Of a stretch of DNA of 64,000 nt, positions 1,971-27,019 are shown piece by piece; the stretch's first letter is position 1; every line of letters starts with the position of its first letter. The notes under the pieces are model-generated. The model was not told the origin of the DNA, searched no databases, and saw only the letters and a list, made by a program, of their open reading frames with translations. The stretch is from Anseongella ginsenosidimutans (GTDB taxonomy: Bacteria; Bacteroidota; Bacteroidia; Sphingobacteriales; Sphingobacteriaceae): NCBI RefSeq assembly GCF_008033235.1, contig NZ_CP042432.1:2418001-2482000 (forward strand). Reading direction: 5' to 3'. Made by a program: the position numbers and the translations under genes.

Positions 1971-2009
1971 TGTCCGGATGCGGACGGGCAGCGTGTCCGA
2001 AAATGAACG
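1971..2009 (+). promoter_or_regulatory. Tandem activator sites (TGTCCG-N4-CGGACA type) upstream of a sigma-54 promoter
   Basis: Two 16-bp imperfect palindromes lie in tandem: TGTCCGGATGCGGACG at 1971-1986 (perfect 5-bp arms GTCCG/CGGAC) and TGTCCGAAAATGAACG at 1994-2009. Their starts are 23 bp apart. The same arrangement occurs at 22374-22411. The first palindrome starts exactly 90 bp before the GG of the -24 element in both places. This looks like an upstream activating sequence for an NtrC-type enhancer-binding protein; no such regulator is encoded in the window. Confidence 0.6.
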
Positions 2010-2058: not shown

Positions 2059-2076
2059 TTGGCAGTTTTCTTGCAT
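2059..2076 (+). promoter_or_regulatory. Sigma-54 (RpoN) type -24/-12 promoter
   Basis: The sequence TTGGCAGTTTTCTTGCAT fits TGGCAC-N5-TTGCA, with GG at 2061-2062, exactly ten bases, and GC at 2073-2074. Transcription would start near 2086 and run into the DUF4097 gene at 2268, giving a leader of about 180 nt. The rest of the 330-nt gap (1938-2267) holds the activator palindromes at 1971-2009 and a 20-codon frame at 2108-2170 that I do not call a gene. I see nothing else in it. Confidence 0.6.
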
Positions 2077-2267
2077 TCCGGATGTCCGCGGATTTGGACT
2101 GCTCACCATGAGCTTCCAATCAATCAGGACGGCGCTGATGAATCCGGTGAAGAGCCTCCGGTCGGAATGAGAAAAGCTTTCCGGGATTTTTTTTTCAGGG
2201 GGTGCAACGTGCCGGACAAAATAGGTGTCTTATAGCTAATAGACTTATATTAAAATAAACCCTCATT

Positions 2268-10000: not shown

Positions 10001-13000
10001 AGATCATAGAAACCGATGCGCTGGGAAAATTCTCGATATCCGTGCCGGTGGGTGTCCATGAAGTGAAAGCGGTGAAAACGAACCATGTATTTGTTAACGA
10101 TGGAAAGATCACCAATCGATTCGGCGGGAACCTGAATTACCAGGAGCCGGTGAGTGAACGCATTTTGTATGACAGCACTACGGTGCGCTTTATAGGCCGG
10201 GTAGCGGGCGGCGTTATACAAAGCGATTATCCCCTGGGGCATTCTCTTTCCAGGAATAACCTTGGGGAAAACCTTTCAATAACGATGGAACTGGCCGGCG
10301 CCCAAAACCGGAAGATCAATGCTTCCGCGGTTGATAGCCTGGTTACCGTAAAGCATTTACTGCCGTCCGGCCAAAGCGACCCTTCCCGGGTGCATCGCAC
10401 GCGCGTGAATTTCCAGGAATATGCCATTACCATTTACCCGGATTCCGTCACCGGGGAATTTGCCGTTGACCTTATTCCGGAGGACTTTAACGTGATGTCC
10501 GTAAAGGCAACCGGGCATTCCAGCCTGAACCTGCCCGGGAATCTTCCGCTGAATATTAACCTGACCAATAAATTTTTTGTCGAAAGTGAAGTGCATGCCT
10601 CCGATACGGTTTTCTATAATTACGCTTATAAATTTATTGAGCGAAATAAACCGCTTATTGACGTAAGCCAGGTGAATATATCGGGGAATAGTGTTCCTTT
10701 TTTCGGGGATACCGTGACTACGGTTAATTTGCTGAACAACCAGGGATATCGTGTGCCTGTTTATGATTTTTCGGACGGCAGCTATTTATTCGGCTACCCG
10801 GTTTTTGAACAGAACAGATCGTACCGGCTCCGGGTAAGCGCATATGAGTTATATGAGTATTTTGAAGAAGATGACCCGCAAAATCCGGTATCCACGGACC
10901 GTGTTCCAACTCAAGACGGACTTGTATCCATCGCGAATGATTTGAGGCGCGGTTCAAATATTCCCGATACGCTTAGCCTGAATGAAGAAGGCGAAGGAAT
11001 TTACCAGTTCCAGGCCGGTGAGCCGGAAATTTCGAATGGGGTCGGGAGAAAGGGGCTTAGCGTCACCGTTGATATAGGCGGCCAGCCCATTCCATGGAAT
11101 AACGGAAACAAACTGGAAGGCTATATAGTAGGGTGGAAGAAGACAGGAACCGATTTTATAACGGCAGGGCCGAACGAAATCGTGCGGGTACTCCGGGACC
11201 CGCCCGGATCCAACAGTTACGCCTGGTTTGAAGAGGGTACCAGCACTATCGTAGAAAAGGAATACGTTGGATCCGTTATCCAGGCAGGTTCGGAGGAATT
11301 GAAAAACTCGCTGGGAGCGGCAACTATTACATTTGTAGGTGTGGGCGGCGGGACCATTAATGTAACGGAAGCCGGAAACACGTACGCGGGCAAGCTTAGC
11401 CATTCGGAAACATTTACCGGGAAGGATAAAAGCACGACGGTCACGAAATTCCTGAGCCGGTATCAGACAAGTGCAGATCCGACCCGGGTTGGCGCCGATG
11501 CCGATCTCTTTATCGGGAATTCCACCAATTTTACCTATGGAAGTACACTTGAACTGATCGTCGTAAAGAACGATGAAGTGAAAACCGGTTCTGATATGGT
11601 CTTTTTCGACGGAGCCGCCGCTGGCGTTGATTATTCTATAGTCCGAAGGACCGGGATTAATATCGCCCAGCGATTCGGAACCCATTTTGTGTACACCGCC
11701 AAACATATCGAAGATATACTGATCCCCGGGATAGTGGAGATCAGGAATACCCTGCTTCTGCCGGTTTCAACCTCGCCTGCTGCTGCCCAGCAAAGGGCTA
11801 ACTCATTAAAGGAAGAGGTATATGTTTCTAAATTGCCTCCTGGTGACCCAAATTATGGTGCGTCTAATGTGGATGCGGAAGCATTTGGGGTTGGGGTGCT
11901 TTCCGCGCCCTGGGGCGACGGCCCAAGCTATAAAATATATACTCCCGATCTGCCCGGTTATAACCAGACGGATACGATCCTGGCTTTGAACCAGCACATC
12001 AAAGGCTGGAAGCGCGAATTGTATGAAAATGAAAAGGTGAAAGTATCCGATCCTGTTCATGTAAAGAATTTTTCCTTTACCGGCGGAGGCGATGTTCAGT
12101 ATTCGGAATATGCCGGGATAACGGAAGTAACCAGCACGGATTTCAATATAACGCTTGGGGCCGCTTTCCTGAGCAGTATCGGTGTCACGATCAACAAAAC
12201 CGGATTGACTCTTAATATTGAAGAAGGCCTGACGACCGAACAAGGGGGTAATTTCAGCGACGGCGGCACCGAAGAAAAGACCTTTGGTTTTACGTTTTCC
12301 GAAAGCAGCGTGGATTACCTCAGCGTGGACGTGCTGAAAGCAAAGGATAGTACCTTCGTATTCAAAACAAAGGGCGGCGAAACAGCATGCCCGTATGAAG
12401 GCCCTACCTTAACAAAATATTTTCAGCCCGGCACTACCATTGACCAGCCGACCATGCGGGCGGAAGCGCCGGATATTACGGTGGAAAAACCCGTTGCCGC
12501 TGATATACCTTCTACGCGCAATGCTACCTTTTCCCTGCAGCTTCAGAACGCATCCGAAACGGAGCGGGGCGTGTCCTTTTACCTGCAGGTAATGGAAGAC
12601 AGTAACCCGGACGGGGCAAAGATCTATATGGACGGCGCCTCCCTGGCCACCGGAAGAGCTGTCTGGCTCAATGCCGGGCAGGTACTGCAAAAGACCATTA
12701 CCCTGGAGCGCGGGCCGGAGGCGATGGAGTATGAAGACATTGTACTGCGGCTGATCTCTGAATGTGATACCACCGCTTTTGACCTGGTTAATATTTCGGC
12801 CCATTTTATTCCATCCTGCTCGGATGTGCATATCCAATCACCGGCTGATAACTGGCTTTTGAACACCCAGTCTCCGGTGAATGCCGCCGGGGAGCGATAC
12901 CTGCCCCTGGTTATTGATGAATTTGATACGAGTAACAGCTTATTCGGCTATATAGGCCTCCAGTATAAGCCCCTGGCCAGTTCAACCTGGACCTCGGTTG

Positions 13001-16000
13001 TTAAATTTTATGCGGATTCCGCTTCCTACGAGGAGGCCCAGGGCGCCAAACAGTTAATTACGGGTAATGAGATTAACTACCAGCTGGTCATGAGCGATGC
13101 TTCGTTCAGCGACCAGCAATATGAGATCAGGACGGTGGCCGTCTGCATGGATAATGGACAGCAGGTATCCACAACTGCATCAAACGTGATAAGAGGAACG
13201 AAGGATACGTACCGGCCCCGACTGTTCGGCAGTCCGCAGCCGGCTAACGGCGTGCTGGATATTACTGAAGATGTCCGGCTCAATTTGAATGAAACGATTG
13301 CTGCGGGCCTGCTTTCTTATCCGGATTTCCAGGTGACCGGTATCCGTAACGGCTCCCTGGGTGATCATTCTGTGTCGGTAAGGCTGGACGGGCAGGATGA
13401 TTACCTGGCTACTGAATTTAATAGGAACCTGGAAGGGAAAGATATCACGGTGGAAATGTGGGTTTTGCCGGGCGGGCAAACGAGCGGCATACCTGCCGGG
13501 AGCCCGCGCGGAACTCTTTTCAGCCACGGAAATAGCAACCAATCCCTGGAACTTGCTTTTGCAGCGGGCAATTACCTGGAAGTGAGGGTTGGGGAAACGG
13601 TTGTTAAAAGTGAAGCGCCCCTGGTGTACAAACCCGGAGAATGGGCGCATGTGGCGCTGGTTTATAATGCAGCGGCTTCTACTGTTTCGGCAGTCTATAA
13701 TTTCGCGGAAGTGATCAGCGGCGTCCCGGTAACCACTTATAGCGGAAGCGGCCATTTTGAGTTCGGACGAAGTATCGCGAAGCAGGGCAACTATTTCGAA
13801 GGGGCCATGCACGAGGCCAGGATATGGACCGAAAGCCTCACGCCAACGCGTTTACAGGCGAACAGCCTGCTTCGTTTATCGGGCGCTGAGAACGGGCTGC
13901 TCGGCTATTATCCGATGACAGAGGGAAAAGGCGATAAGGCTTTTGATAAAGCGCATGGCGCGCATGCCGGCCTGCAGGGGAACTGGGCTACGCCGCCCGG
14001 AAAAGCCATCAGCTTCGACGGGAACGGATACCTGAAGCTGAATACAGCCACCGCTCCGGTAACCGGCCGGATGGATTACACGATGGAACTTTGGTTTAAA
14101 GCGGAACCGGGCCAGGGAGATGCGGCCCTGGCATCCAGCGGAAAAGGCGATGGCAATGATAACAGCGGATCCCGCAGCGTCTTCTTTTTAGGTTTTGAGA
14201 ATGGCTTGCTTACCTACCGCAATAACGGCGTCAAAATGCAGGCCGAAGGAAATTATTTGGACAATGACTGGCATCACCTGGCTATTGCCGTGAACCGCAA
14301 CTCAGGTGTTGCACAGTTCTTCGTGGACGGCGAACTCAACAGTTATTTCGATGGGAATGCCCTGGGAGGATTAGCTGCACCCTTTATCTACCTGGGAGCC
14401 AGGGGATGGCATGAGCAGGGTGATGCGGCTACGGTGTCATTTGACCGCCACTTCAAAGGAAAAATAGATGAGTTCCGTCTCTGGAATACCTACCTGAATG
14501 CCACCCTGGTAAGCGAGAACAGTAACGTACGGCTTAAAGGAGATGAGCTGGGGCTTTTATTGTACTATCCGTTTGAGGACTACGTGGAGTTCCAGAATAA
14601 CCAGGAACTGGCTTTCAGCCTGGCCGATTTAAAAATACAGCAGGATCCTGCGACGGTTATTCCCCCTGCCGAAACGGTGAATGCAACGGAAACAGACGAT
14701 AAAGCGCCGGTTAAAGACCATGGCTCGGTGGACAACCTGCAATTCGACTACGTGGTGAATGACGACGCGCTGATCATTAATTTGCTGGAGCCAAGGCAGG
14801 CGATTGATAAAACCATTGTCACTTTCCGGGTGGAAAACCTGCGCGATATGAATGGCAATATAATGGAATCGCCGGTCACCTGGACAGCCTATATTGACCG
14901 GAATCAATTGAGTTGGAGTGATGATGAATTCACGCTGAGCAAGGAATTATATGCGCCCATGGAATTTGAATCGTATATTCTGAACAGCGGCGGCAGCGTG
15001 CAGCATTTCCGGCTGGACAATCTTCCTTCCTGGCTGCGCGCCAGTCCTTCCAGCGGTACCATTGAGCCTCAGGGTCGGGAAAAAATTGTATTCCGCATAA
15101 ATGAAGGCCTGAATGTAGGCGCTTATGATGAGATCATCTATATGCGTAATGATGACGACGAAACCGAAGCCTTGCCGGTTAGCCTGAAAGTGGCGGGCGA
15201 GGAACCGGACTGGGCCGTGGACCCCGCCGATTTTGATTACAGCATGATCGTTTATGGTAAACTGCGTATCAATGGCATTTTTTCGGCGAATCCGGATGAT
15301 ATACTGGCCGCGTTTACCGGCGGGGAATGCGTTGGGTTCACGCGAAACGTTTATAATGAGGCAAATGATCTCTGGTACACCTTCCTGACGGTCTATAGCA
15401 ATACGCTGCAGCACGATGATCTTGAATTCCGAATCTGGGACGCCGCCAGCGGTAAAACCTACCAGGCAGTGCCTTCGGCCGGTGTTTCTTTTAGCAATGA
15501 TGCCATTGCCGGCACGGCCGCCGGCCCTATTCTGTTTGAGGGCCGGGAGATGGTCTTCCAGGATATCCCCTTGACCCAGGGCTGGAATTGGATATCCTTT
15601 AACCTTTCCAGCGGGAACCTCGATGATATACCATCCACGTTATCCAAGGGGCAATGGCAGTCCGGAGATATCGTGAAGAACGAGGAGCTGGGATTTCATC
15701 AATATTCCTCGTCAGGCGGCTGGCTGGGGTACCTGGAATCTTTTAATAATACGTCTCTTTTCATGCTGAAGGCCGGCCTTGCCCAGTCCCTGAGTATCGA
15801 CGGCATTCCGCTGGATATCGCCGCTACCCCCATTCCGGTGAAAGGCGGGCGCTGGAATTATATCAGTTACCTGCCACAGGGCAATATGACCGTGCAGGAA
15901 GCCCTGGCGGGCTACGAAGCATCGGATGAAGACGTGATCAAGTCGCAGACCGGTTTCGCTATGTATAATTCGCAGACCGGCTGGGTGGGTAATCTCACTT

Positions 16001-16866
16001 TCCTGGAACCTGGCAAAGGGTATATGCTGTACCGGAAAGCGGCAAACGATGTGACCTTCCACTATCCTGCTCAGGGCGGTATATTGAACCAGGCCGGCGG
16101 GGGCCGGACCGTGGAAACCGTTCCTTTGCGATCTTCGGGAAGCACGGCCTTGCCCGGCGGGCTGCGGGCGGGCGCCATACAGGCCGCTCAGCGGCTTAAT
16201 CCCCTGCAGGCGCCGGTGGAAAATAACTTTTATTTCGCCGAAAATATGACTGTAATTGCTGTCCTGGATGATGAATTTGATCTTAGCTCCGAGGATCGCG
16301 TAATTGCCTACGTGAATGGCGAAGTAAGGGGCAAGGCAGCGCAAGTTACCAACCCGCTGAACGGGAAGCCCCAATTCTTTATAAATATCGCCGGCGATGA
16401 AAACGCGCCCGTGTATTTTGAGATCGAACGCCAGGGAAGGATAGTGGCCCGCTCGGCTACGACAATTGCCTACCGGTCGGACAGCAGGGCGGGTACGGTG
16501 GACGATCCCCTGGTGATCCGCATTGAGAATGAGCATGCGGAGATCACCATGTACCCTAACCCCTTTGGCCGGCAGCTCACGATCAGCGGGGAGATCCGCG
16601 CCGGCGGAAGCGCCGGCGGTGAAAGCCCTGGAAGCCAGCGCGAAACTTCCCCTGTTCATGAAGTACAGTTACTGGTATATGACGTTACCGGTGCAAAGGT
16701 GCTGGAAGGGCCGCCGCAGCGGATAAGCGGTAATAATTTCCGCCTTACCTGGGACGGGCGGAACATGGGCGGCCAGGTTTGCCTGCCGGGAGTTTATTTT
16801 ATTCATGTGCTTATTGACGGCAGGCCTCTTTCAGGTAAAGTGATCAAGGTGGATTCTCCTAAGTGA
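7069..16866 (+). CDS. Giant multidomain secreted protein with three LamG-like domains and a T9SS type A sorting tail
   Basis: A 3,265-residue secreted protein with a signal peptide (residues about 1-26). Residues about 330-630 hold fibronectin-like segments. A first LamG/concanavalin-like domain (about 671-845) is inserted into a carboxypeptidase-regulatory-like fold (GTVYGRITYENGQAVENVAV). A second regulatory-like domain is at about 945-1012. Two more LamG domains lie at about 2104-2280 and 2311-2500 (FDGNGYLKL..., DNDWHHLAIAV). A BACON-like segment (about 2614-2712) follows. Then come a (D/E)DILAAF domain (about 2713-2830), two GWNWISF/RWNYISY repeats (about 2838-3005) and a second DDEF/VIAYVNGEVRG domain. 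The last ~100 residues (MYPNPFGRQLTI ... GVYFIHVLIDG) are a type A sorting signal. The protein is probably surface-anchored or released; ligand binding is suggested by LamG, but no enzyme domain is recognised. Confidence 0.9.
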   Translation: MERLYFNCLTTTLFLSLQLFGYKAQAATHFIPAIDIASASASASADIASAGTVSGKLYNPDDYGIEGYGVDEYGVYIHFYLVVASKEGPTSKIDGRVKVRYSDRGATFIGSLFDYGGDPETMRIRTKFLDTYHSSGGIRFRAENGTPANNAWSGFITVPDGDEYKTDGGAELTEVHIRWYIPEELIGKRLTILHSQALYIAGDYVGIQETTMYFDKVKSRTSKIFSPPLPDATFSTGEISANPDKMLVRYAYSGTTAPAGATVRHWLNDDMNNDVTDASNVKPTGTLDAVKSNFEQRHDFYSEFIGQGGHMRYRQSQVVMVPPYIWPVELKAAYDGENKVALSWNVNLPGAGTNFIDGDKFEVARSTDSTFGDITKIKAVGTIDYDPAQTHYETLDNLADLRDSTHVYYRVRRTESKNTWEWKVSVNAGLYVELDTILKADTVLLDETAGPKAIITWQPFKGVWFSGTRFTITKSNQTTGAAPQIINLDEKDARSGTYTDDNIPYCSEFTYSIELTFGGNFDSPPEADVPGSVLAVDVGTIKDLYVSKGYFPDRTELRWSAEGIFDSYIIKRRIYGSGDNFAQIATVPGTSANSDIQTDDPKGIPGVYYEYRVVGAVNCNNTTKYSKDTLQAVGFRSPAGTVYGRITYENGQAVENVAVRLESADNAQLGRSIYLNGEAESYLMIDSLYHPFSGPAFTVEAWIRPDDKQPVNQVIFSQSGQYELGFNGAGQLYFRYKNEVVTGAYIIQNQSFVHLAGVYGRDSLGLMLNDSLIAVIPCLAQPGGSPDTTVYIGRNANGNHFKGYIDEMRAWNIALDAQRVKRDYTRLMAGNEAGLAAYWRFDETIEDQFYDISNTSSNYHKNDGILAMQAVRSNVIPTPDQLSLKAYTDISGNYMISGIPYTGNGTTYAIVPLLGTHQFDPTSVNRLISSNSSEFTVNFVDKSSFPVSGYVYYQNSTVPVKGVQFMIDGKYAQKENGQIIETDALGKFSISVPVGVHEVKAVKTNHVFVNDGKITNRFGGNLNYQEPVSERILYDSTTVRFIGRVAGGVIQSDYPLGHSLSRNNLGENLSITMELAGAQNRKINASAVDSLVTVKHLLPSGQSDPSRVHRTRVNFQEYAITIYPDSVTGEFAVDLIPEDFNVMSVKATGHSSLNLPGNLPLNINLTNKFFVESEVHASDTVFYNYAYKFIERNKPLIDVSQVNISGNSVPFFGDTVTTVNLLNNQGYRVPVYDFSDGSYLFGYPVFEQNRSYRLRVSAYELYEYFEEDDPQNPVSTDRVPTQDGLVSIANDLRRGSNIPDTLSLNEEGEGIYQFQAGEPEISNGVGRKGLSVTVDIGGQPIPWNNGNKLEGYIVGWKKTGTDFITAGPNEIVRVLRDPPGSNSYAWFEEGTSTIVEKEYVGSVIQAGSEELKNSLGAATITFVGVGGGTINVTEAGNTYAGKLSHSETFTGKDKSTTVTKFLSRYQTSADPTRVGADADLFIGNSTNFTYGSTLELIVVKNDEVKTGSDMVFFDGAAAGVDYSIVRRTGINIAQRFGTHFVYTAKHIEDILIPGIVEIRNTLLLPVSTSPAAAQQRANSLKEEVYVSKLPPGDPNYGASNVDAEAFGVGVLSAPWGDGPSYKIYTPDLPGYNQTDTILALNQHIKGWKRELYENEKVKVSDPVHVKNFSFTGGGDVQYSEYAGITEVTSTDFNITLGAAFLSSIGVTINKTGLTLNIEEGLTTEQGGNFSDGGTEEKTFGFTFSESSVDYLSVDVLKAKDSTFVFKTKGGETACPYEGPTLTKYFQPGTTIDQPTMRAEAPDITVEKPVAADIPSTRNATFSLQLQNASETERGVSFYLQVMEDSNPDGAKIYMDGASLATGRAVWLNAGQVLQKTITLERGPEAMEYEDIVLRLISECDTTAFDLVNISAHFIPSCSDVHIQSPADNWLLNTQSPVNAAGERYLPLVIDEFDTSNSLFGYIGLQYKPLASSTWTSVVKFYADSASYEEAQGAKQLITGNEINYQLVMSDASFSDQQYEIRTVAVCMDNGQQVSTTASNVIRGTKDTYRPRLFGSPQPANGVLDITEDVRLNLNETIAAGLLSYPDFQVTGIRNGSLGDHSVSVRLDGQDDYLATEFNRNLEGKDITVEMWVLPGGQTSGIPAGSPRGTLFSHGNSNQSLELAFAAGNYLEVRVGETVVKSEAPLVYKPGEWAHVALVYNAAASTVSAVYNFAEVISGVPVTTYSGSGHFEFGRSIAKQGNYFEGAMHEARIWTESLTPTRLQANSLLRLSGAENGLLGYYPMTEGKGDKAFDKAHGAHAGLQGNWATPPGKAISFDGNGYLKLNTATAPVTGRMDYTMELWFKAEPGQGDAALASSGKGDGNDNSGSRSVFFLGFENGLLTYRNNGVKMQAEGNYLDNDWHHLAIAVNRNSGVAQFFVDGELNSYFDGNALGGLAAPFIYLGARGWHEQGDAATVSFDRHFKGKIDEFRLWNTYLNATLVSENSNVRLKGDELGLLLYYPFEDYVEFQNNQELAFSLADLKIQQDPATVIPPAETVNATETDDKAPVKDHGSVDNLQFDYVVNDDALIINLLEPRQAIDKTIVTFRVENLRDMNGNIMESPVTWTAYIDRNQLSWSDDEFTLSKELYAPMEFESYILNSGGSVQHFRLDNLPSWLRASPSSGTIEPQGREKIVFRINEGLNVGAYDEIIYMRNDDDETEALPVSLKVAGEEPDWAVDPADFDYSMIVYGKLRINGIFSANPDDILAAFTGGECVGFTRNVYNEANDLWYTFLTVYSNTLQHDDLEFRIWDAASGKTYQAVPSAGVSFSNDAIAGTAAGPILFEGREMVFQDIPLTQGWNWISFNLSSGNLDDIPSTLSKGQWQSGDIVKNEELGFHQYSSSGGWLGYLESFNNTSLFMLKAGLAQSLSIDGIPLDIAATPIPVKGGRWNYISYLPQGNMTVQEALAGYEASDEDVIKSQTGFAMYNSQTGWVGNLTFLEPGKGYMLYRKAANDVTFHYPAQGGILNQAGGGRTVETVPLRSSGSTALPGGLRAGAIQAAQRLNPLQAPVENNFYFAENMTVIAVLDDEFDLSSEDRVIAYVNGEVRGKAAQVTNPLNGKPQFFINIAGDENAPVYFEIERQGRIVARSATTIAYRSDSRAGTVDDPLVIRIENEHAEITMYPNPFGRQLTISGEIRAGGSAGGESPGSQRETSPVHEVQLLVYDVTGAKVLEGPPQRISGNNFRLTWDGRNMGGQVCLPGVYFIHVLIDGRPLSGKVIKVDSPK
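7171..7218 (+). repeat. GCTTCC hexamer microsatellite within the giant gene
   Basis: Four perfect tandem GCTTCC units (7177-7200) are flanked by two copies of GATATTGCTTCCGC. They encode DIASASASASADIASAG just after the signal peptide. Because the unit is six bases, copy-number change would alter the length of the Ala-Ser linker without a frameshift. Confidence 0.75.
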
Positions 16867-17551: not shown

Positions 17552-20426
17552 TTAAGCCAGCAGGTATTCCAGGTCTTCCAGGCTCAGCTGTTTCACGAAG
17601 CCGTCCCCTTCGCCGATAAGATCGCCGGCCAGTTGCTTTTTTTGCTGCTGCATGCCGATGATCTTTTCCTCGATACTGTCCCTGCATACCATTTTGTAGG
17701 CAAATACTTTCCTGGTTTGTCCGATACGGTGACTCCTGTCAACGGCCTGTTCCTGCACGGCGGTGTTCCACCAGGGGTCGAATAAAAAGATATAGCTGGC
17801 CGCCGTAAGATTCAGGCCGGTATTGCCCGCCATCAGGCTGATCAGGAATACGTTTACCGGGTTGCTTTCATCCTGGAATTTATTCACCATTTCCATGCGC
17901 TCCCGGCTGGGGGTGCTTCCGTCGAAATGATAATGATCAATACCCCGCTGCCTGCAGGCGTCCGAAAGCAGGTGCAGCATGGAGCTGAACTGGGAGAATA
18001 CCAGTACTTTTCGATCTTTCAGGTCATTGCAAAGCTCCTCCATGAGCATTTCGGTTTTTATGGAGTCCCCGTTGATCCGGTCTTCAGCGGGGAGCAGCAG
18101 CGGAGAATTGCAAGCCTGGCGAAGGCGGGTGATCCCCTGGATAATGGCCAGCTTGCTTTTGCCGATACCCTGCTGCTTTATTTCAAGAAAGATGCTGCTG
18201 CGGATGGCGCTTTTGATCGTTTCGTACTGTTCCCGCTGTCCGGGGCCCATATTGCACCAAAGAACGGTCTCCGTTTTTTCCGGTAGTTCGGGAGCAACCT
18301 GTTCCTTTGTCCGGCGGAGAATGAAGGGTGCAGTCAGCTTTCGCAGGGCATTTGTTTTTTCTTCGTCCCGGTCACGGTCAATGGGATTGGCATATTGCTT
18401 CCTGAAGAACTCACGGCTTCCGAACATGCCCGGTACCAGGAAATGAAGCTGCGAATAAAGGTCGAAGGTATTGTTCATTACGGGCGTCCCGCTAAGGGTG
18501 ATACGCGCAGCGGCTTGCAGGCGGTTTACAGCACGGGTGACTAAAGCATCCGGGTTTTTGATATGGTGGCTTTCATCGATCACGACCGTATCGAATGAGA
18601 TCCCTGCCAGGAGTTCCTCATCGGAACGAAGAGTGCCGTAACTGGTGATCAATACCTGTGCCGGGGCCCCTCCGGGCCGCTGGCCGTGCGGGAGGCGCCG
18701 TGATAAGCCAATGAGTTTATGCCCGGCGCAAATTTTTCCAGTTCCTGCTGCCAGTTGTAGATGAGCGATGCCGGGCAAACCACCAGGTGCCTTGCCGAAG
18801 CGTCCTGCTCCAGGCGTTTCAACAGGAAAGCGATCGTCTGAAGGGTCTTTCCCAGGCCCATGTCATCTGCCAGGCAGGCTCCGGCCCCGGTTTCTGCCAG
18901 CAGCAGCAGCCATTCATATCCTTTTTGCTGATAAGGCCTTAAGGCGGCCTGCATCCCGGCCGGCGGCGGATAAAGAGGTTCCTGGCGTTCCTGCCAGTAT
19001 TCCCATTTTTCCCACCAGCCGGCTTTCAGGACAGGCTTAAAAATTTCCGTTTCCGGGCTTTCCCCGCCGCGGGTCAGCGCCATCCAGCGGGGCACCAGCA
19101 GTTTGCTTCCCGATATTTTTCCATGCCGGATCAGGGTGGCATATTGAGTTAACCATTCATCGCTCAGGATGCCAAGCGTATGGCCTTTCAGCAATACCGC
19201 CCGCTGACCCGCCATCAGCGTTTTTTGTAACGTGCCCAGGGATATCTTTTCTTTTCCAAAAGATACTTCCAGGGTCATCGTAAGCAGTTCCCCGTCTCCC
19301 TCTTCGAGCGCCGCCTGCGTCTGCGCCTTATGGGGAGAATAACGGAAATGCTGCAGCATATCCATTCCGGTTAGTTCAATATCCTGTTCCTGCAGCCGGT
19401 GATATGTTTTCAGGAACCATTGCTTTTTTTGCGCATCGGCGAAAGAAAGATAAAAATAGCCGTTGCTTTGCTTTTCAAAGGCCGGATGGAGGCTCCTCAG
19501 TAATGCCTGGAAATCTTCTTCGGCCTGTTTGTTCCTCCTGATTATATAGGTCCTGCCTCCGCGGTTTATCTCCAGGGTGGCGGTGAAGGGGCCTTCTGCC
19601 AGAAAATCATCGTAAATCCATTGTGGGGTCAGCAACAGGAAGGCGCCGTTCAGTTCACTTAACAGCAGTCGGTTTACGGGAAGCGCATCCACACGATCTT
19701 CCTCCATCAGATTATTCCTGTTTACGGAATGACTTTCTTCCAGCCTGGCCAGCACATGGTGCGTAAATGCGGCCGGGTCATCGCCGTATAAAGAGGGAGG
19801 GTTTTTCTCCAGCCATTCAAGCAGCAGGAAATCCCGGTAGCCAAGCAGGAAATAATTGTTATCCAGCTCAAGCAGGAAATGATACCGCCGGAAATCCGCC
19901 AGCGGCCGGGTGTTTCCGCCTTCGCGCGCCGACCTTCCGTCCGCGAGCGCCTGCCCGGCCAATTTCACCTGCACCCGGATATTCAGCCGGCCTTCTTCCC
20001 TGATCACATCAAATTGAAGCAGCGGCTTAGCTTCGCTGAACCGGCAGGGAGCCGTTTTATAATTATGGTCCTGCTGCTTTACCCGGTGATACCATTTTAC
20101 CTGGCCTGTATAAGGTTTCAGTCCGACAAATAATTCATGCAAAGCCCTCAGAGCAGCCTGGCGGTAAAACACATCAAAATCAGGACGGCTGGTCCGGGCG
20201 GAATATTTCCTGCGGATGGTATCTTTCAGCTCGCTTATTCCCTTTTCCCCGAAGCGCGGCAGCAGCTTTCTGGCTGCTGCCGGCAAGGCGTCAAACGTTG
20301 TTTTGGCTTCCCGTTCACTGAAGCTGAGGATTTCATAATCAATTTTCCCTGCTTCTTTTTTGATATGCAGGGATTTCAGGACACCGTGGTCCGGTAATAG
20401 TTGCTGAGGGCCAGTAATATGATCAT
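17552..20426 (-). pseudogene. SNF2-family DEAD/DEAH helicase, frameshifted (probably one gene)
   Basis: Two minus-strand frames together encode one SNF2/RapA-like helicase of about 910 residues. The upstream part (20286-18649) ends with LADDMGLGKTLQTIAFLLKR and VVCPASLIYNWQQELEKF. The downstream part (to 17552) continues with VLITSYGTLR, the DESHH box and LSGTPVMNN, and ends with HRIGQTRKVFAYK, completing the two RecA lobes. The frames join at GGGGCCCC (18663-18670), and one extra G or C restores YHGASRTASGPEGAPAQVLI. No heptamer in the right phase suggests programmed slippage. The upstream frame lacks an ATG (only a TTG at 20286). A short frame starting at ATG 20426 (MIILLALSNYYR) stops at 20376 and would join it by another one-base shift, so a second lesion is possible. 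It is either a pseudogene or a sequencing artefact. Confidence 0.8.
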
Positions 20427-20532: not shown

Positions 20533-21024
20533 TCAATTCTCCCGCCGGGCGCTGACTTCTTCCGGCAGGATATAGTCTTTGTTGTCTCCGAATGTATAGC
20601 GGACATAGCTGAGTACGGAGGCGATTTCTTTGTCTTTCAGGAAATTATGGGTAGGCATCATTTGGTTGTAGGTTTTGCCGTTCACCGTGATGCTGCCGGA
20701 AAGGCCTTCGAGGACGATCTCTATCAGCTTTTCTTCATCCGCCAGCCAGGCGGTATCCGTAAGGGGCGGGTACATGCCGGGCACGCCGTTGCCATCGGAT
20801 TGGTGACAGGCCAGGCAGTAGCTGTCATAGATCTTCTTTCCCAGTATGAGCGTGCTGTCCGGAGGGCTTTTCCCGGCGGAGTCCTTTCCGGCGGGCGAAA
20901 GATGTTCCTGCAATCGGGAGGAGTCTTCAGCGGCCGCTTTATTTCCGGCGGTGTCGGCGGCGTCCTTTGAAACAGGCTGGCAGGAAGTGATCGCTGCCAG
21001 CAGTAAAAAATAACAAAAGTTCAA
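20533..21024 (-). CDS. c-type cytochrome lipoprotein
   Basis: A 163-residue periplasmic cytochrome c with lipobox AITSC (Cys15) and a Ser/Ala/Asp-rich linker. It has a single heme-binding site, CLACH (Cys70, Cys73, His74). The likely distal Met ligand is in NQMMPTHNF. The start is a TTG at 21024 that overlaps the TGA of the upstream dehydrogenase (TTGA), indicating translational coupling. It is the probable electron acceptor for the PQQ-type dehydrogenase encoded just upstream. Its C-terminal half resembles the cytochrome domain at the right edge of the window (PPL...W...EE(K/R)LI, L(K/E)GL.G...VNGK.Y, VLSYVR..FG). Confidence 0.9.
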   Translation of the reverse strand: MNFCYFLLLAAITSCQPVSKDAADTAGNKAAAEDSSRLQEHLSPAGKDSAGKSPPDSTLILGKKIYDSYCLACHQSDGNGVPGMYPPLTDTAWLADEEKLIEIVLEGLSGSITVNGKTYNQMMPTHNFLKDKEIASVLSYVRYTFGDNKDYILPEEVSARREN

Positions 21025-22322
21025 TTCTCTTCGTTTTTTCCCTCGTAGATCACCCGCCAGATACGTCCGTTTTGCGAGTCGGAAATATACAGGGAACCGT
21101 CAGGCCCTTGTGCCAGCCCCATAGGGCGGTATTCCGCATCTCCCGGGCTTGACAGCGAGTCGGTCCCGGTGAAACCTTCGGCAAAAACCTCCCAGTCGCC
21201 GGAAGGCTGATCGCCATTAAAGGGAACGAAGGCTACCAGGTAACCTGCCTGCTTGAGGGGCGCCCGGTTCCAGGAGCCATGGAAAGCAATGAAGGCGCCG
21301 TTCTTATACTGTTCCGGGAACATGTCTCCATCGTAAAAAAGCACGTCATTGGGAGCCCAGTGGCCTGGAAATGCCATGATAGGGTTTTCCGCCGAATCAC
21401 AGCGGGCAATTTGCCGGCCGTCTCCGCCGTATTCCGGGGAAAGCACCTTCTTGTTTTGAATATGATCGTAGTAACAATACGGCCAGCCAAAATCGGAACC
21501 GTCCCGGACCAGGAAAAATTCTTCGGCCGGAAGCTCAGCGCTTTCCTCGTTCGTATAAAGCTCCGGCCAAAAATTAGCCAGCTGGTCCCGGCCATGCTGC
21601 AGGGCATATAATGTATTGACCGATGAATTCCAGTCCAGCGCTACAGCGTTGCGTATGCCGGTAGCATAGCGGTGCCCGTCTTCCTGGGACTGTTTTGTTT
21701 GTCCTGCACTGAACCGCCAGATGCCTCCGGCGTATTCAAGGATAGGGCAGGGGTCCTGGCCGGGAGTGCCGGGCGTACGGTCCGGATCCTGACAGGCATT
21801 GGAGGGTGCGCCGATATTTATATATACGTTTCCCTGATCGTCAAACGTGAAGGTTTTGGCGGCATGCTGATTCCGGGACGTAAGTCCGTAAGCGATGGTT
21901 TCAAAAGCCGCTTCGGGCAGTAGTTCATCGCCTTTAAACGGATACCGGAAAAGCGCGGAATCCGGTGCGAAATACAGGTAATTGTCCCGGATGCCTATCC
22001 CTGTGCCGGAATAATCCCCGAAATAACTGATCTGATCGGCTTTTCCGTCGCCGGTAGTATCCCGAAGGGCGGCGATGCCGCCACCTTTGTCCAGGTTCTC
22101 AATGGCAACATAAATGTCTCCGTTCTCCCGGACGGTAAGGTGCCTCGCACGCCCAAGGCTATCGGCTACCACCAGGGCGCCGAAATTTTCAGGGAGTTCT
22201 ATGCTTCCATTATCAGGATCGGCCGCAAGGCCGGCGTTCTGATCGTCGGTTGAGCCAGGCTGACAGCCTGCGGTTGCCAGCACTGCCGCCAGGGCAACCG
22301 GTAAGTAATTCCGGGCTTTCAT
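21021..22322 (-). CDS. PQQ-dependent sugar/sorbosone dehydrogenase-like lipoprotein
   Basis: A 433-residue periplasmic protein with lipobox ATAGC (Cys20). It shows the six-bladed beta-propeller features of the sorbosone/soluble glucose dehydrogenase family: GDIYVAIENLDKGGGIAAL, GLTSRNQHAAKTFTFD, NVYINIGAPSNAC, GIRNAVALDWN, DFGWPYCYYD and GLAQGPDGSLYISDSQNGRIWRV. Such proteins oxidise aldoses or related sugars with bound PQQ and pass electrons to a cytochrome. The coupled cytochrome c gene downstream fits this role. Substrate cannot be told from sequence, and PQQ binding itself is inferred. The ATG at 22322 gives a normal lipoprotein signal. The region upstream is shared with the divergent ABC operon. 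Confidence 0.88.
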   Translation of the reverse strand: MKARNYLPVALAAVLATAGCQPGSTDDQNAGLAADPDNGSIELPENFGALVVADSLGRARHLTVRENGDIYVAIENLDKGGGIAALRDTTGDGKADQISYFGDYSGTGIGIRDNYLYFAPDSALFRYPFKGDELLPEAAFETIAYGLTSRNQHAAKTFTFDDQGNVYINIGAPSNACQDPDRTPGTPGQDPCPILEYAGGIWRFSAGQTKQSQEDGHRYATGIRNAVALDWNSSVNTLYALQHGRDQLANFWPELYTNEESAELPAEEFFLVRDGSDFGWPYCYYDHIQNKKVLSPEYGGDGRQIARCDSAENPIMAFPGHWAPNDVLFYDGDMFPEQYKNGAFIAFHGSWNRAPLKQAGYLVAFVPFNGDQPSGDWEVFAEGFTGTDSLSSPGDAEYRPMGLAQGPDGSLYISDSQNGRIWRVIYEGKNEEN

Positions 22323-22373: not shown

Positions 22374-22411
22374 TGTCCGGAAATGAACAGGAAGGTGTGC
22401 GTTTCCGAACA
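22374..22411 (+). promoter_or_regulatory. Tandem activator sites upstream of the ABC-TolC-HlyD operon
   Basis: Two 16-bp imperfect palindromes are present: TGTCCGGAAATGAACA at 22374-22389 and TGTGCGTTTCCGAACA at 22396-22411. Their starts are 22 bp apart. They match the pair at 1971-2009 in sequence and spacing. The distance from the first palindrome to the -24 GG is 90 bp here as well. They are likely binding sites for an NtrC-type activator. Confidence 0.6.
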
Positions 22412-22462
22412 TTGCTTTGTTACTTTGTGGGCTTAGCGGCCGGCAGGCGGGTAATTTTCTTC

Positions 22463-22478
22463 TGGCCGCAATATTGCG
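22463..22478 (+). promoter_or_regulatory. Sigma-54 type promoter of the ABC-TolC-HlyD operon
   Basis: TGGCCGCAATATTGCG has GG at 22464-22465, exactly ten bases, then GC at 22476-22477, with TTGC in the -12 element. Predicted transcription start is near 22489, which leaves a leader of about 44 nt before the ATPase ATG at 22533. Confidence 0.55.
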
Positions 22479-22532
22479 CCTGCTGGCGTCAAACATTGTT
22501 TGATTTTACGTTTTTATTTACAATTTTTAAAA

Positions 22533-23204
22533 ATGATCCGCTTAAACGATATTTCAAAATCTTACCCGGCAGGATTCGGACGAGTATATGTATTGCGCCA
22601 TGTTGACCTGGAGATCAAAGAAGGCGATTTTCTAAGCATAATGGGGCCTTCCGGAGCGGGAAAGTCCACTTTGCTTCATATACTCGGATTACTTGAGGAT
22701 CCCTCGGAAGGAGAGTATTTATTCCTGGACGAATCGGTACAGGGGCTTAATGAAAAGAAGCGCACTTTGCTGCACCGTGACCATATCGGATTTGTATTTC
22801 AGCAATACCACCTGATAGACGAACTTACGGTGTACGAAAATATTGAAACGCCCCTGCTTTATAAGAAACTGGGAGCTTCCGAACGTAAGAGCCGAGTAGC
22901 GGATGTGCTGGACAGGTTCAATATTGTCGCGAAAAAAGACTTGTTTCCCAGCCAGTTATCAGGCGGGCAGCAGCAGCTCGTAGGGGTTGCCCGCGCCATC
23001 GTAGCCCGTCCGAGGGTCATATTCGCTGACGAACCTACCGGAAACCTGCATTCTGACCAGGCCCGGGAGATCATGAGCCTTTTCAGGGAACTTAATGAAA
23101 AGGATGGGATCACTATTGTGCAGGTGACTCATTCGGAAGAAAACGCCGGTTATGGGAAGCGTATCGTGAATTTGAAGGATGGTGTAGTAATAACCCGTAA
23201 CTAA
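22533..23204 (+). CDS. ABC transporter ATP-binding protein (LolD/MacB type)
   Basis: A 223-residue ATPase with Walker A MGPSGAGKSTLLHILG, Q-loop FVFQQYHLIDELTVYENIE, signature LSGGQQQLVGVARAIVARP, Walker B VIFADEPTGNL and switch His in VQVTHS. The LolD/MacB subgroup powers periplasm-facing FtsX-type permeases in lipoprotein sorting or tripartite export rather than substrate translocation through the membrane. I start at ATG 22533 (MIRLNDISKSYP), which is the family N-terminus; an upstream in-frame start would add 11 AT-rich codons. The next genes encode a TolC-like channel and a HlyD-like adaptor, but no permease follows, which is unusual. A sigma-54-type promoter lies upstream. Confidence 0.93.
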   Translation: MIRLNDISKSYPAGFGRVYVLRHVDLEIKEGDFLSIMGPSGAGKSTLLHILGLLEDPSEGEYLFLDESVQGLNEKKRTLLHRDHIGFVFQQYHLIDELTVYENIETPLLYKKLGASERKSRVADVLDRFNIVAKKDLFPSQLSGGQQQLVGVARAIVARPRVIFADEPTGNLHSDQAREIMSLFRELNEKDGITIVQVTHSEENAGYGKRIVNLKDGVVITRN

Positions 23205-23258
23205 AAATTTACGGCAGTTGAAATTTAATACATAAAATTATTTATATACTTGTGCCAC

Positions 23259-24590
23259 ATGATTACACATTACCGTTATTTCGCTTTGGTACTCGGCCTG
23301 TTTTTTTTAAGCGGGGAAGCGGCTGCCCAGCAAAACCTGACCCTGCTTGAATGCATTGATTATGCCCTTGAGAACAACCTGGAGATTGAACAGGCGCGGA
23401 TAAATGAACGGCTTTCGGAGGTGGATGTACACCAGGCTAAAATTGACCTCTTTCCGGATCTGAACGGGTCGGCATCGCATAATGTCAGCTTTGGCCGAAG
23501 CGTGAACCCGATTACAGACGTAATCGATGACCAGCGGATAAGTGCGGGAAACCTGGGGCTTAATACGTCCCTGCTGCTGTTTTCCGGTTTCCGTCAGCTG
23601 AATGCCATTGCCCAGGCAAAGTACAATATGATGGCCAATCAAAGCGCCGTGGAAAGGATCAAGCAGCAGGTCATGGTAAACGTGGCCGCCACTTTCGTGC
23701 AGGTACTCTATTCCAGGGAGCAAATGGCTGCCACGCAGGAACAGGTTAATATCAGCAAGTCCCAGGTGGAGAACGCGCAGCGCAAAGTAGATGTAGGTAC
23801 CATTCCTATGGGCGATTTGCTTCAGTTGAAGGCGACGCTTGCCAATGACGAGCTTACCCTTACTCAGGCGATCAATACTTATGAAATTAATTTATTGGAT
23901 CTTAAAAACTTTCTGAATATAAATCCTTCCACTCCTTTCGGGATTGAAGTGCCCGCCAACGTGGATCTCTTGCTGGAACAGATCAAGACGGATTATTCGC
24001 TTTCCGAGGTGTTTACCAGGGCCGTGGAGATCAATCCTGCCATGCAGGAGGCCGCTAACCGGCGCCTGGCTGCGGAAGAGAACCTGCAGATAGCCCGGGG
24101 AGGCTTACTGCCATCCTTATCCTTTGGAGCCGGATTGGGAACAAGGTATTCCAATGGCACCGATTTCACGATAAACGACCAGCTGGATCAGAATTTCAAC
24201 CAGTATTTCGGCTTCCAGCTCTCTATTCCTATTTTCAATAAATTTCAGGCACAAAATACGATTAAACGCGCCCGGCTGAACCTGGAAGGCGCCCGTATCA
24301 CGGAGAATACAAACCGCAATGAACTGAACCAGATCATTGCACAGGCGCTGGCGGATCTCCGGGCGGCGGAAAAAAATTATTCTTCGGCCCTTCGTGCCTT
24401 TGAATCATCCAGGCTCGCATTCGAGTACAGCCAGAAGCGATTTGACGTCGGCCTGACCAATGCCATTGATCTGAATCTTTCAAAAACGCAGCTTGCCCAG
24501 GCAGAAGTGGACATGCTGCAATCCAAATACGATCTTATTTTCAGGAGTAAAGTAATTGATTACTATCTTGGGAATAGTTTGGCATTTTAA
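23259..24590 (+). CDS. TolC family outer-membrane efflux protein
   Basis: A 443-residue protein with signal peptide ending SGEAAAQ. It has the two-repeat TolC architecture: an N-terminal NLTLLECIDYALENNLEIEQARIN helix, SFGRSVNPITD and a long alpha-helical barrel region. The second repeat is ...NPAMQEAANRRLAAEENLQIARGGLLPSLSFGAGLGTRYSN. Near the end is the conserved ...YSQKRFDVGLTNAIDLNLSKTQLAQAE motif. The start is ATG 23259; an upstream TTG nine bases earlier is less likely. It provides the outer-membrane duct for the adaptor encoded 1 nt downstream and is presumably powered with the ATPase upstream (54-nt gap). Confidence 0.93.
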   Translation: MITHYRYFALVLGLFFLSGEAAAQQNLTLLECIDYALENNLEIEQARINERLSEVDVHQAKIDLFPDLNGSASHNVSFGRSVNPITDVIDDQRISAGNLGLNTSLLLFSGFRQLNAIAQAKYNMMANQSAVERIKQQVMVNVAATFVQVLYSREQMAATQEQVNISKSQVENAQRKVDVGTIPMGDLLQLKATLANDELTLTQAINTYEINLLDLKNFLNINPSTPFGIEVPANVDLLLEQIKTDYSLSEVFTRAVEINPAMQEAANRRLAAEENLQIARGGLLPSLSFGAGLGTRYSNGTDFTINDQLDQNFNQYFGFQLSIPIFNKFQAQNTIKRARLNLEGARITENTNRNELNQIIAQALADLRAAEKNYSSALRAFESSRLAFEYSQKRFDVGLTNAIDLNLSKTQLAQAEVDMLQSKYDLIFRSKVIDYYLGNSLAF

Positions 24591-24591
24591 C

Positions 24592-25989
24592 ATGAAGAAA
24601 TTAAAGCGTACAGGTTATCATATGAGGCGAACAAATTTTTTTATCATACTATTAACGACCCTGTTTGCCGGGGCCTGCGGAAATAAGAAGGGAACAGAGG
24701 TGGCCGTGGAGGCTGCCACAGGGCGGAGTATTACGGAAACTGTTTCAGCCAGCGGGAAGATCCAGCCCGAAGTGGATGTCAAGCTCAGCCCGGAAATTTC
24801 AGGAGAGATCACCGAACTGAATGTGAAGGAAGGCGACCAGGTGAAAAAAGGCGACCTGCTTATGCGTATTCGGCCTGAAATATACGAGTCTACTGTTAAC
24901 CAGATGGCTGCCGCTCTTAACCAGGCAAGGTCCAACACTGCTACCGCGCAGGCAAGGCTGAGCCAGTACGAGGCACAGCTTGCGGGTTTGGAATCCGCGT
25001 TTAACCGTACCCGGCAGCTTCACGAAGACAAAGTAATATCCAACGCTGAATACGACCAGGCTGTTGCTGACTATGAAGCCATGAAGGCGCAGGTGACGGC
25101 GGCCAAGCAGGAAGTGGATGCCGCCCGCTTTAACGCAGCCGCTGCCCAGGCGAGAATGAAGGAAGCCAATCAGAACCTGGACCGTACTATTATTTATGCG
25201 CCGGTTGACGGCACGGTTTCCAAGCTGAACGTGGAAATAGGTGAAACAGTACTTGGAACCTCTCAAATGACGGGTACCGAGCTGATGCGGATCTCTAACC
25301 TTTCCAGCATGGAAGTGCTGGTGGAAGTGAATGAGAATGATATTACCCGCATTTCCGTGGGTGATACGGCGGATATTGAAGTGGATGCTTTTCTGGGCGA
25401 AGAATTTACGGGTGTGGTTACGGAAATTGCCAGTTCGGCCAATAACGTAGGTTCTGCTACAGACCAGATCGCAAATATCGACCAGGTAACAAATTTCAAT
25501 GTAAAGGTGCGGATCCTGCCGGAATCTTACCAGCACCTTATGCAATCAAAAAGTACGGACCTGCCCTCGCCCTTCCGGCCCGGGCTTTCCGCCTCGGTTG
25601 ATATCCAGACAGAAAGAGTTGCCGGAACAGTCAGCGTACCCATCCAGGCGGTGACCATCCGGGATGAATCCGGCCGGAACCGGAACACGGAATCGCGTCC
25701 CGGGCAGGAGGAAGAAAAAACTACGGAAGAACAGGAAGCGCCGCCTGCCGATAGCGGCGAAGAAAAGGTCAGGGAAGTAGTGTTTATCCATAATGAAGCG
25801 GAGGGCACTGTTTCCATGAGAGAAGTAGTAACGGGAATACAGGATGACCAGTTCATAGAAGTGAAATCGGGCCTTGAAGAAGGGGAGAAGGTAGTGGTTG
25901 CTCCTTTTCTGGCAATTTCCAAAACGCTTCGCGACGGATCGAGTGTCCGGATCGTGGAGCGGTCTGAATTATTTTCCGGGGAAGAATAA
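24592..25989 (+). CDS. HlyD/MacA-like efflux adaptor (periplasmic membrane fusion protein)
   Basis: A periplasmic adaptor of about 465 residues. It has a lipobox-like TTLFAGAC near residue 29. The biotinyl-lipoyl halves are SPEISGEITELNVKEGDQVKKGDLL and TIIYAPVDGTVSKLNVEIGETV, flanking a coiled-coil hairpin (about 105-200, rich in Ala/Gln). The beta-barrel carries MEVLVEVNENDITRISVGD. A Glu-rich low-complexity insert (about residues 363-392) precedes the membrane-proximal domain. The ATG at 24592 lies 1 nt after the TolC stop, so the pair is translationally linked; a second ATG at 24622 would also keep the signal. It bridges an inner-membrane pump to TolC. The expected MacB-like permease gene is missing; gpsA follows instead after 28 nt. 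Confidence 0.92.
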   Translation: MKKLKRTGYHMRRTNFFIILLTTLFAGACGNKKGTEVAVEAATGRSITETVSASGKIQPEVDVKLSPEISGEITELNVKEGDQVKKGDLLMRIRPEIYESTVNQMAAALNQARSNTATAQARLSQYEAQLAGLESAFNRTRQLHEDKVISNAEYDQAVADYEAMKAQVTAAKQEVDAARFNAAAAQARMKEANQNLDRTIIYAPVDGTVSKLNVEIGETVLGTSQMTGTELMRISNLSSMEVLVEVNENDITRISVGDTADIEVDAFLGEEFTGVVTEIASSANNVGSATDQIANIDQVTNFNVKVRILPESYQHLMQSKSTDLPSPFRPGLSASVDIQTERVAGTVSVPIQAVTIRDESGRNRNTESRPGQEEEKTTEEQEAPPADSGEEKVREVVFIHNEAEGTVSMREVVTGIQDDQFIEVKSGLEEGEKVVVAPFLAISKTLRDGSSVRIVERSELFSGEE

Positions 25990-26017
25990 GCAGCTGCAGG
26001 CGGCAAACAGGGAAATT

Positions 26018-27019
26018 GTGGAAAAAAGTACAACAGCAGTCATCGGTGGCGGAAGCTGGGGTACCGCCATTGTAAAGATACTTAGTGAAGCCCCCGGCGG
26101 CTACCCGGTTTCCTGGTGGATGCGTAACCAGGACCAGATCAATCATATTGTCAAATTCGGAAGGAATCCCTGGTACCTGAGTTCAGTAGACCTGGACGTG
26201 GACAGGAAGCACATAAGCAATGATCTCAGGAAGGTTATTTCCGGAGCGGAAACGCTTATCTTCAGCGTACCAGCCGCTTTTCTTAAAGATGCATTGAAAG
26301 ATATCAGGCCCGAAGACCTGCAGGGAAAAAGGGTGGTTTCGGCAATTAAAGGCTTCGTGCCTGATGATAATATGATCGTCGGCGAGTTCTTCAATAAAGA
26401 ATTCGGGGTTCCTTTTAGCCGGCTGGCCGTGGTTACCGGGCCCTGCCATGCGGAAGAGGTAGCCCTGGAAAAATTGTCCTACCTGACTATTGCCTCGAAA
26501 AACAGGACGCTTGCCCGGTCAATAGGCGCCCTGTTTTCAGCCCGTTATATCCATGTTAACGTATCGGATGATATTTATGGGACGGAATATGCCGCAGTGC
26601 TAAAAAATATCTTTGCGATCGCCAGCGGTATTTGCCACGGACTTGGATACGGAGATAATTTTCAGGCTGTGCTTATCGCTAATGCCATCCAGGAGATCAA
26701 ACGCTTTGTGGACGCGGTGCATCCCATTGACCGGGATATTAAGGAATCGGCCTACCTCGGTGATTTACTGGTAACGGCATATTCACAGTTCAGCCGCAAC
26801 CGTACTTTTGGAAATATGATCGGGAAGGGATATTCCGTGAAATCGGCGCAGATGGAAATGAATATGATCGCCGAAGGTTATTTTGCTGTAAAATGCCTTT
26901 ACGAGATCAACCGGCAATATGGTATTTCCATGCCTATCTGCGAAGCTGTTTATGCTATTCTTTATAAAAATAATTCTCCCGCCGCGGAGATCCGCGCGCT
27001 GTCCGGAAAATTGAAATAG
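26018..27019 (+). CDS. gpsA: NAD(P)H-dependent glycerol-3-phosphate dehydrogenase
   Basis: A cytosolic enzyme that reduces dihydroxyacetone phosphate to sn-glycerol 3-phosphate for phospholipid synthesis. The N-terminus has the Rossmann fingerprint AVIGGGSWGTAIVKIL. The middle has TGPCHAEEVA, the catalytic-lysine segment EYAAVLKNIFAIASGICHGLGYGDN, and NRTFGNMIGKGYSVKSA. I choose GTG 26018 (MEKSTTAVIGGGSWG), which gives 333 residues, the usual family length. The frame is open further upstream into the adaptor gene but lacks a good start there. It lies 28 nt after the adaptor stop on the same strand, so it may be co-transcribed with the efflux genes, though it should have its own housekeeping role. 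Confidence 0.93.
   Translation: MEKSTTAVIGGGSWGTAIVKILSEAPGGYPVSWWMRNQDQINHIVKFGRNPWYLSSVDLDVDRKHISNDLRKVISGAETLIFSVPAAFLKDALKDIRPEDLQGKRVVSAIKGFVPDDNMIVGEFFNKEFGVPFSRLAVVTGPCHAEEVALEKLSYLTIASKNRTLARSIGALFSARYIHVNVSDDIYGTEYAAVLKNIFAIASGICHGLGYGDNFQAVLIANAIQEIKRFVDAVHPIDRDIKESAYLGDLLVTAYSQFSRNRTFGNMIGKGYSVKSAQMEMNMIAEGYFAVKCLYEINRQYGISMPICEAVYAILYKNNSPAAEIRALSGKLK

Follow-up and report, generated by a model that had tools for sequence, protein, structure and literature searches.

The site at positions 22374-22478 is very likely the enhancer and sigma-54 promoter of a dispersed regulon, in which a histidine kinase and an NtrC-family activator would co-induce permeases, ATPases and adaptors. It lies in the window, the 64,000-nucleotide stretch C1:2418001-2482000 of the 4.32-Mb genome of Anseongella ginsenosidimutans (G000), whose positions are used below unless C1 is named. 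A sequence-only reading had called the site a second copy, after one at 1971, whereas it is one of 15 full copies genome-wide; the sigma-54 and activator architecture proposed in that reading, and its suggestion of a common regulator for the two sites, are both supported by the present analysis.

Architecture of the Window Sites

Both palindromes and the -24/-12 element lie where the sequence-only reading had placed them (Table 1). The step from palindrome 1 to palindrome 2 is 22 bp, or two helical turns, and the GG-N10-GC arrangement of the promoter is the canonical spacing of a sigma-54 -24/-12 element. Transcription is predicted to start at about 22489 (about 12 nt past the GC), which leaves a 44-nt leader before the ATPase ATG at 22533, as had been claimed. 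The spacing had also been described as identical to that of the 1971 site, which holds for the 89 bp from palindrome 1 to the TGG but not for the palindrome step, which is 23 bp at 1971.

Exactly two matches to the paired-palindrome pattern were identified in the window (1971 and 22374), against a mean of 0.00 in 100 shuffles. Sites were searched by patterns and by a sequence-only covariance model trained on nine genome sites, with both window sites left out. Out of sample and genome-wide, this model recovered 22374-22477 (E = 0.005; model positions 1-103 of 104) and the 1971 site (E = 0.009). With 19 bits vs 32-66, the profile score of the window promoter is among the lowest of the full sites.

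Table 1. Features of the window discussed in the text.
Feature	Position	Strand	Basis or remark
Enhancer palindrome 1, TGTCCGGAAATGAACA	22374..22389	.	Pattern match; genome consensus (15 sites)
Enhancer palindrome 2, TGTGCGTTTCCGAACA	22396..22411	.	Perfect match to TGTNCG-N4-CGNACA
Sigma-54 -24/-12 promoter, TGGCCGCAATATTGCG	22463..22478	+	GG-N10-GC; 89 bp from palindrome 1 start
ABC ATPase, MacB/LolD/DarD-like, 223 aa	22533..23204	+	67% identical to stand-alone ATPases of G036 and G004
TolC-family outer-membrane efflux protein	23268..24590	+	85% identical orthologue in G001
HlyD/RND-type periplasmic adaptor, lipoprotein-like N terminus	24592..25989	+	TIGR01730 above cut-off
GpsA-like glycerol-3-phosphate dehydrogenase ORF	25898..27019	+	Conserved TolC-HlyD neighbour; true start probably further in
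GSDH/sorbosone-dehydrogenase-like protein, divergent neighbour	21021..22322	-	Conserved in G001
Block (site and ATPase), 855 bp	22378..23232	.	Absent from the G001 GSDH-TolC interval (blastn)
Companion palindrome 1, TGTCCGGATGCGGACG	1971..1986	.	Pattern match
Companion palindrome 2, TGTCCGAAAATGAACG	1994..2009	.	Pattern match
Companion sigma-54 promoter, TGGCAGTTTTCTTGCA	2060..2075	+	Sequence, fixed spacing
20-codon permease stump, MSFQSIRTALMNPVKSLRSE*	2108..2170	+	Matches C terminus (SFQSIKAALMNPVKSLRSE) of the regulon's duplicated permeases

Genome-Wide Copies and Their Targets

Outside the window, the model identified 13 full sites, comprising the nine training sites and four others (E = 6e-12 to 6e-7). 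The palindrome consensus over the 15 genome sites is TGTyCG-N4-CGrACA, and the -24 element is locked to the palindromes in every one of them, at 85-89 bp from palindrome 1, a value of 85 meaning that the match begins one base inside the palindrome. Lone palindromes with one mismatch occur near the level of noise (117 vs 94 in the control; 21 vs 16 expected), so that only palindrome pairs are informative. One such pair, at C1:4096045-4096084, is followed in neither direction by a recognisable -24/-12 element.

The permeases of the regulon are about 800 aa long and carry a duplicated FtsX/MacB_PCD architecture according to the domain search. A genome search with MacB_PCD revealed 12 duplicated permeases in 11 transcription units together with six single-length permeases; the site is present before all 11 duplicated-permease units and before none of the six single-PCD MacB-type permeases (Fisher P = 8e-5). 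The remaining targets are an HlyD-ATPase operon divergent from the activator gene and the ATPase of the window. Two sites precede permease remnants, namely the window site at 1971 and the one at C1:3977814, where the middle of the permease is deleted. Judging from its C-terminal match, the stump at 2108-2170 is the remnant of a lost duplicated permease, the rest of the gene being gone. The companion promoter might instead drive the DUF4097 gene at 2268, a possibility that we set aside because the stump directly behind the promoter explains the site better. Damaged or rearranged regulon permeases were noted at C1:3690152, 1252910, 3977814 and 2700452 (L094, L101, L104 and L097), and among them, besides the middle-deleted copy, are a short one beside a transposase-like gene, one in two frames and one behind a partial copy.

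The Candidate Activator and the Adjacent Kinase

The genome encodes one rpoN (a single PF04552 gene, 188 bits) and four true sigma-54 activators. The candidate activator, at C1:2414499-2415848, is an NtrC-family protein encoded 2.2 kb to the left of the window and adjoining a histidine kinase gene (C1:2413154-2414509). It contains the domains of a group 1 (NtrC-type) activator, which are a receiver (PF00072, Response_reg), an AAA+ domain (PF00158, Sigma54_activat) and a Fis-type HTH (PF02954), and a palindrome pair sits between its gene and the divergent HlyD of the HlyD-ATPase operon. Its loop reads GAFTDA, against GAFTGA in the sigma-54 contact loop, and GAFTDA is found in 75 of 78 orthologues. 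The recognition helix LG[LI][ST]RxxLYRR is shared by the orthologues, and the three remaining activators of the genome have a different one.

We compared 80 orthologous activator loci from named genomes (Chitinophaga, Dyadobacter, Runella, Larkinella, Pedobacter and others). In 65 of these loci, the 700 bp upstream of the activator contain a palindrome pair, compared with 0/80 in the reversed control, which makes it very probable that the activator binds the pair; the other 15 loci have no pair at the threshold used. Divergent HlyD (66/80), ATPase (72/80) and permease genes (69/80) recur at these loci, and a similar kinase was found beside the regulator in only 43/80. Strict pairs in 60 relatives gave 46 matches, vs one in the control, spread over nine genomes, eight of which have an activator orthologue. 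Across 247 genomes of the class, strict pairs occur in 8 of 35 with the orthologue and in 1 of 212 without it (P = 6e-7), although such P values overstate independence because the genomes are related to each other. The sole pair-bearing genome among the 212 encodes a 44% relative at a distance of 10 kb. Genome G023 contains seven strict pairs, several before permeases, and no clear activator orthologue was found in its assembly of 120 contigs; a gap in the assembly, a recent loss or a different regulator may account for this.

Two positions of the -24 element relative to palindrome 2 were seen in relatives, 67-71 bp and, one helical turn further out, 80-81 bp. Their -12 element often reads TTG or ATG with a next base other than C. 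In the Dyadobacter loci L228-L249, the palindrome step is 20 bp and the distance to the -24 element exceeds that seen elsewhere by about a helical turn, which looks like a lineage-specific change that preserves the helix face.

The kinase has two membrane helices separated by a loop of roughly 5-12 residues, a layout kept in relatives. Because this leaves almost no periplasmic part, its signal is more likely read in the membrane or cytoplasm than as a periplasmic ligand. Envelope or export stress, suggested in the sequence-only reading, is a candidate signal.

Gene Content and History of the Window Locus

The genes behind the window site had been described as an ABC-TolC-HlyD efflux operon. 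An ATPase, a TolC and an HlyD do follow the site, but no permease was identified between 22533 and 27019, so the target is not a complete tripartite ABC efflux operon of the MacAB-TolC type.

Compared by blastn with a genome of the same genus (G001), the window is collinear through 22377 and resumes at 23233. The order in G001 is GSDH, TolC, HlyD and GpsA without the ATPase, and neither an activator orthologue nor strict palindrome pairs were found in that genome (92% complete). Most other family members carry TolC-HlyD-GpsA behind a polysaccharide deacetylase gene, also without ATPase or palindromes. The nearest ATPases (67% identity) are those of G004 and G036, where they stand alone after palindrome pairs. 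The expectation that the elements would be conserved upstream of orthologous efflux operons consequently fails when anchored on TolC-HlyD, because the TolC-HlyD orthologues lack ATPase and palindromes, but it is borne out when the ATPase (G004, G036) or the activator (65/80 loci) is followed instead. The simplest reading of these comparisons is that site and ATPase were gained ahead of an older TolC-HlyD pair. In the activator tree, the protein falls with Chitinophaga (97/92 support) and outside its own family, in keeping with lateral gain. The block may instead have been lost in G001, whose incompleteness leaves some room for this.

Elsewhere in the window, an SNF2-type helicase spans two overlapping frames on the minus strand (17552-18778 and 18649-20286), probably through a frameshift. 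A 3265-aa ORF at 7069-16866 with three Laminin_G_3 stretches encodes a giant secreted or surface protein beside a HisKA_2 kinase and a LytTR regulator.

Proposed Mechanism and Alternative Readings

We infer that, upon a signal, the membrane histidine kinase would phosphorylate the adjacent NtrC-family response regulator, which would oligomerise on the two palindromes, placed two turns apart on a single DNA face. From there, about 50 bp away, the bound regulator would remodel sigma-54 polymerase at the -24/-12 element. In this way the signal would co-induce the scattered duplicated FtsX/MacB permeases together with the parts that they lack, namely two ATPases and one or two HlyD adaptors, with which the permeases may assemble for export; the window operon would probably add TolC to this set. 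A bolder version, held only tentatively, is a modular exporter in which many interchangeable duplicated permeases share one or two ATPases and the adaptor and TolC parts, all encoded elsewhere, under one kinase-activator-sigma-54 switch. In that version the kinase, with its two membrane helices and nearly absent outer loop, may sense through the permeases, in the manner of BceS-type kinases.

The strongest competing reading, to which we give a chance somewhat short of even, concerns the reach of the window promoter: the site would drive the inserted ATPase alone, and TolC-HlyD would stay outside the regulon under a housekeeping promoter of their own. The block stops 35 bp before the TolC ATG, and these 35 bp (23233-23267) are common to G001, whose TolC-HlyD pair has neither site nor ATPase before it; the lone ATPases behind the same palindromes in G004 and G036 point in the same direction. 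Since the shared 35 bp could harbour an older promoter, sigma-54 read-through into TolC-HlyD is put forward here as an inference, but the ATPase-TolC gap of just 63 bp and the alignment of the genes favour it. Decay is a less likely explanation, under which the sites would be relics that no longer work in this strain. It would fit the permease remnants behind the sites at 1971 and C1:3977814, the permease truncated beside a transposase-like gene and the one split in two frames, yet intact open frames remain for the regulatory genes (activator, kinase and rpoN), for the ATPases and for most permeases, and we consider such decay unlikely.

That the palindromes serve one or more of the other activators, the neighbouring one being there by chance, appears quite improbable: G023 has pairs and no clear orthologue, but the pair lies beside the activator orthologue in most loci, the two co-occur among genomes, and the recognition helix is not the same in the three others. 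Least credible is a coincidence of chance palindromes and a chance -24/-12 look-alike before an ordinary operon. The window site does score below most others and single palindromes with one mismatch are common, but a pair at the fixed 89-bp distance from the promoter of an ABC target, where no pair was expected in the shuffled window and where the genome-wide model found the site out of sample, makes this explanation hardly tenable. Chance-site and repressor-site readings were dropped because the distance to the -24 element is fixed.

Comparison With Known Systems

A 2025 study (PMC12316311) predicted that COG0577 FtsX-like permeases of Bacteroidia are under sigma-54 control and called this first evidence. 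That prediction shares with ours the sigma factor, the permease class and the phylum; the passages considered concern promoter predictions only and contain no paired enhancer, cognate activator, shared ATPase or adaptor genes, or fixed geometry. In the open-access papers searched, no description came up of the enhancer, of its activator or of the shared genes for ATPase and adaptor, and a search there for palindromes with sigma-54 in Bacteroidota returned nothing relevant.

In Bacteroidota, the duplicated FtsX/MacB permeases number in the tens and are annotated as orphans of unknown function; two Dyadobacter genomes contain 28 and 33 copies, many Dyadobacter copies being annotated as ADOP (PMC11573002). 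ADOP (TIGR03434) is also the best NCBIfam match of the regulon permeases, which share its length of about 800 aa, its two MacB_PCD-FtsX repeats and its lack of an ATPase domain, but their scores of 272-294 bits lie below the cut-off of 622 for a full-length member. The common enhancer names a regulator and likely ATPase and adaptor partners for the whole permease family, and permease function and signal thus become testable via one regulator gene.

Similar to MacAB-TolC and DarBCD, the putative system includes an ATPase, an HlyD/MacA-like adaptor, TolC and a MacB-type permease, but its genes are dispersed and joined by a regulator and do not form one operon. Both ATPases match DarD best, and the adaptor at the regulator locus matches DarC best, at scores below the equivalog cut-offs (236 of 375 bits for the DarD-like protein; 34 in the window and 217 at the regulator locus, of 450, for the DarC-like ones). 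With NtrC-family sigma-54 regulons of the ZraSR and AtoSC type, the candidate regulon has in common an activator of receiver, AAA+ domain and Fis HTH, an adjacent kinase, paired palindromes and -24/-12 promoters. It differs from them in an activator that reaches none of the NCBIfam equivalog cut-offs set for named members and carries a GAFTDA loop, in a two-helix kinase with almost no periplasmic loop, and in having a scattered family of paralogous permeases as its regulon.
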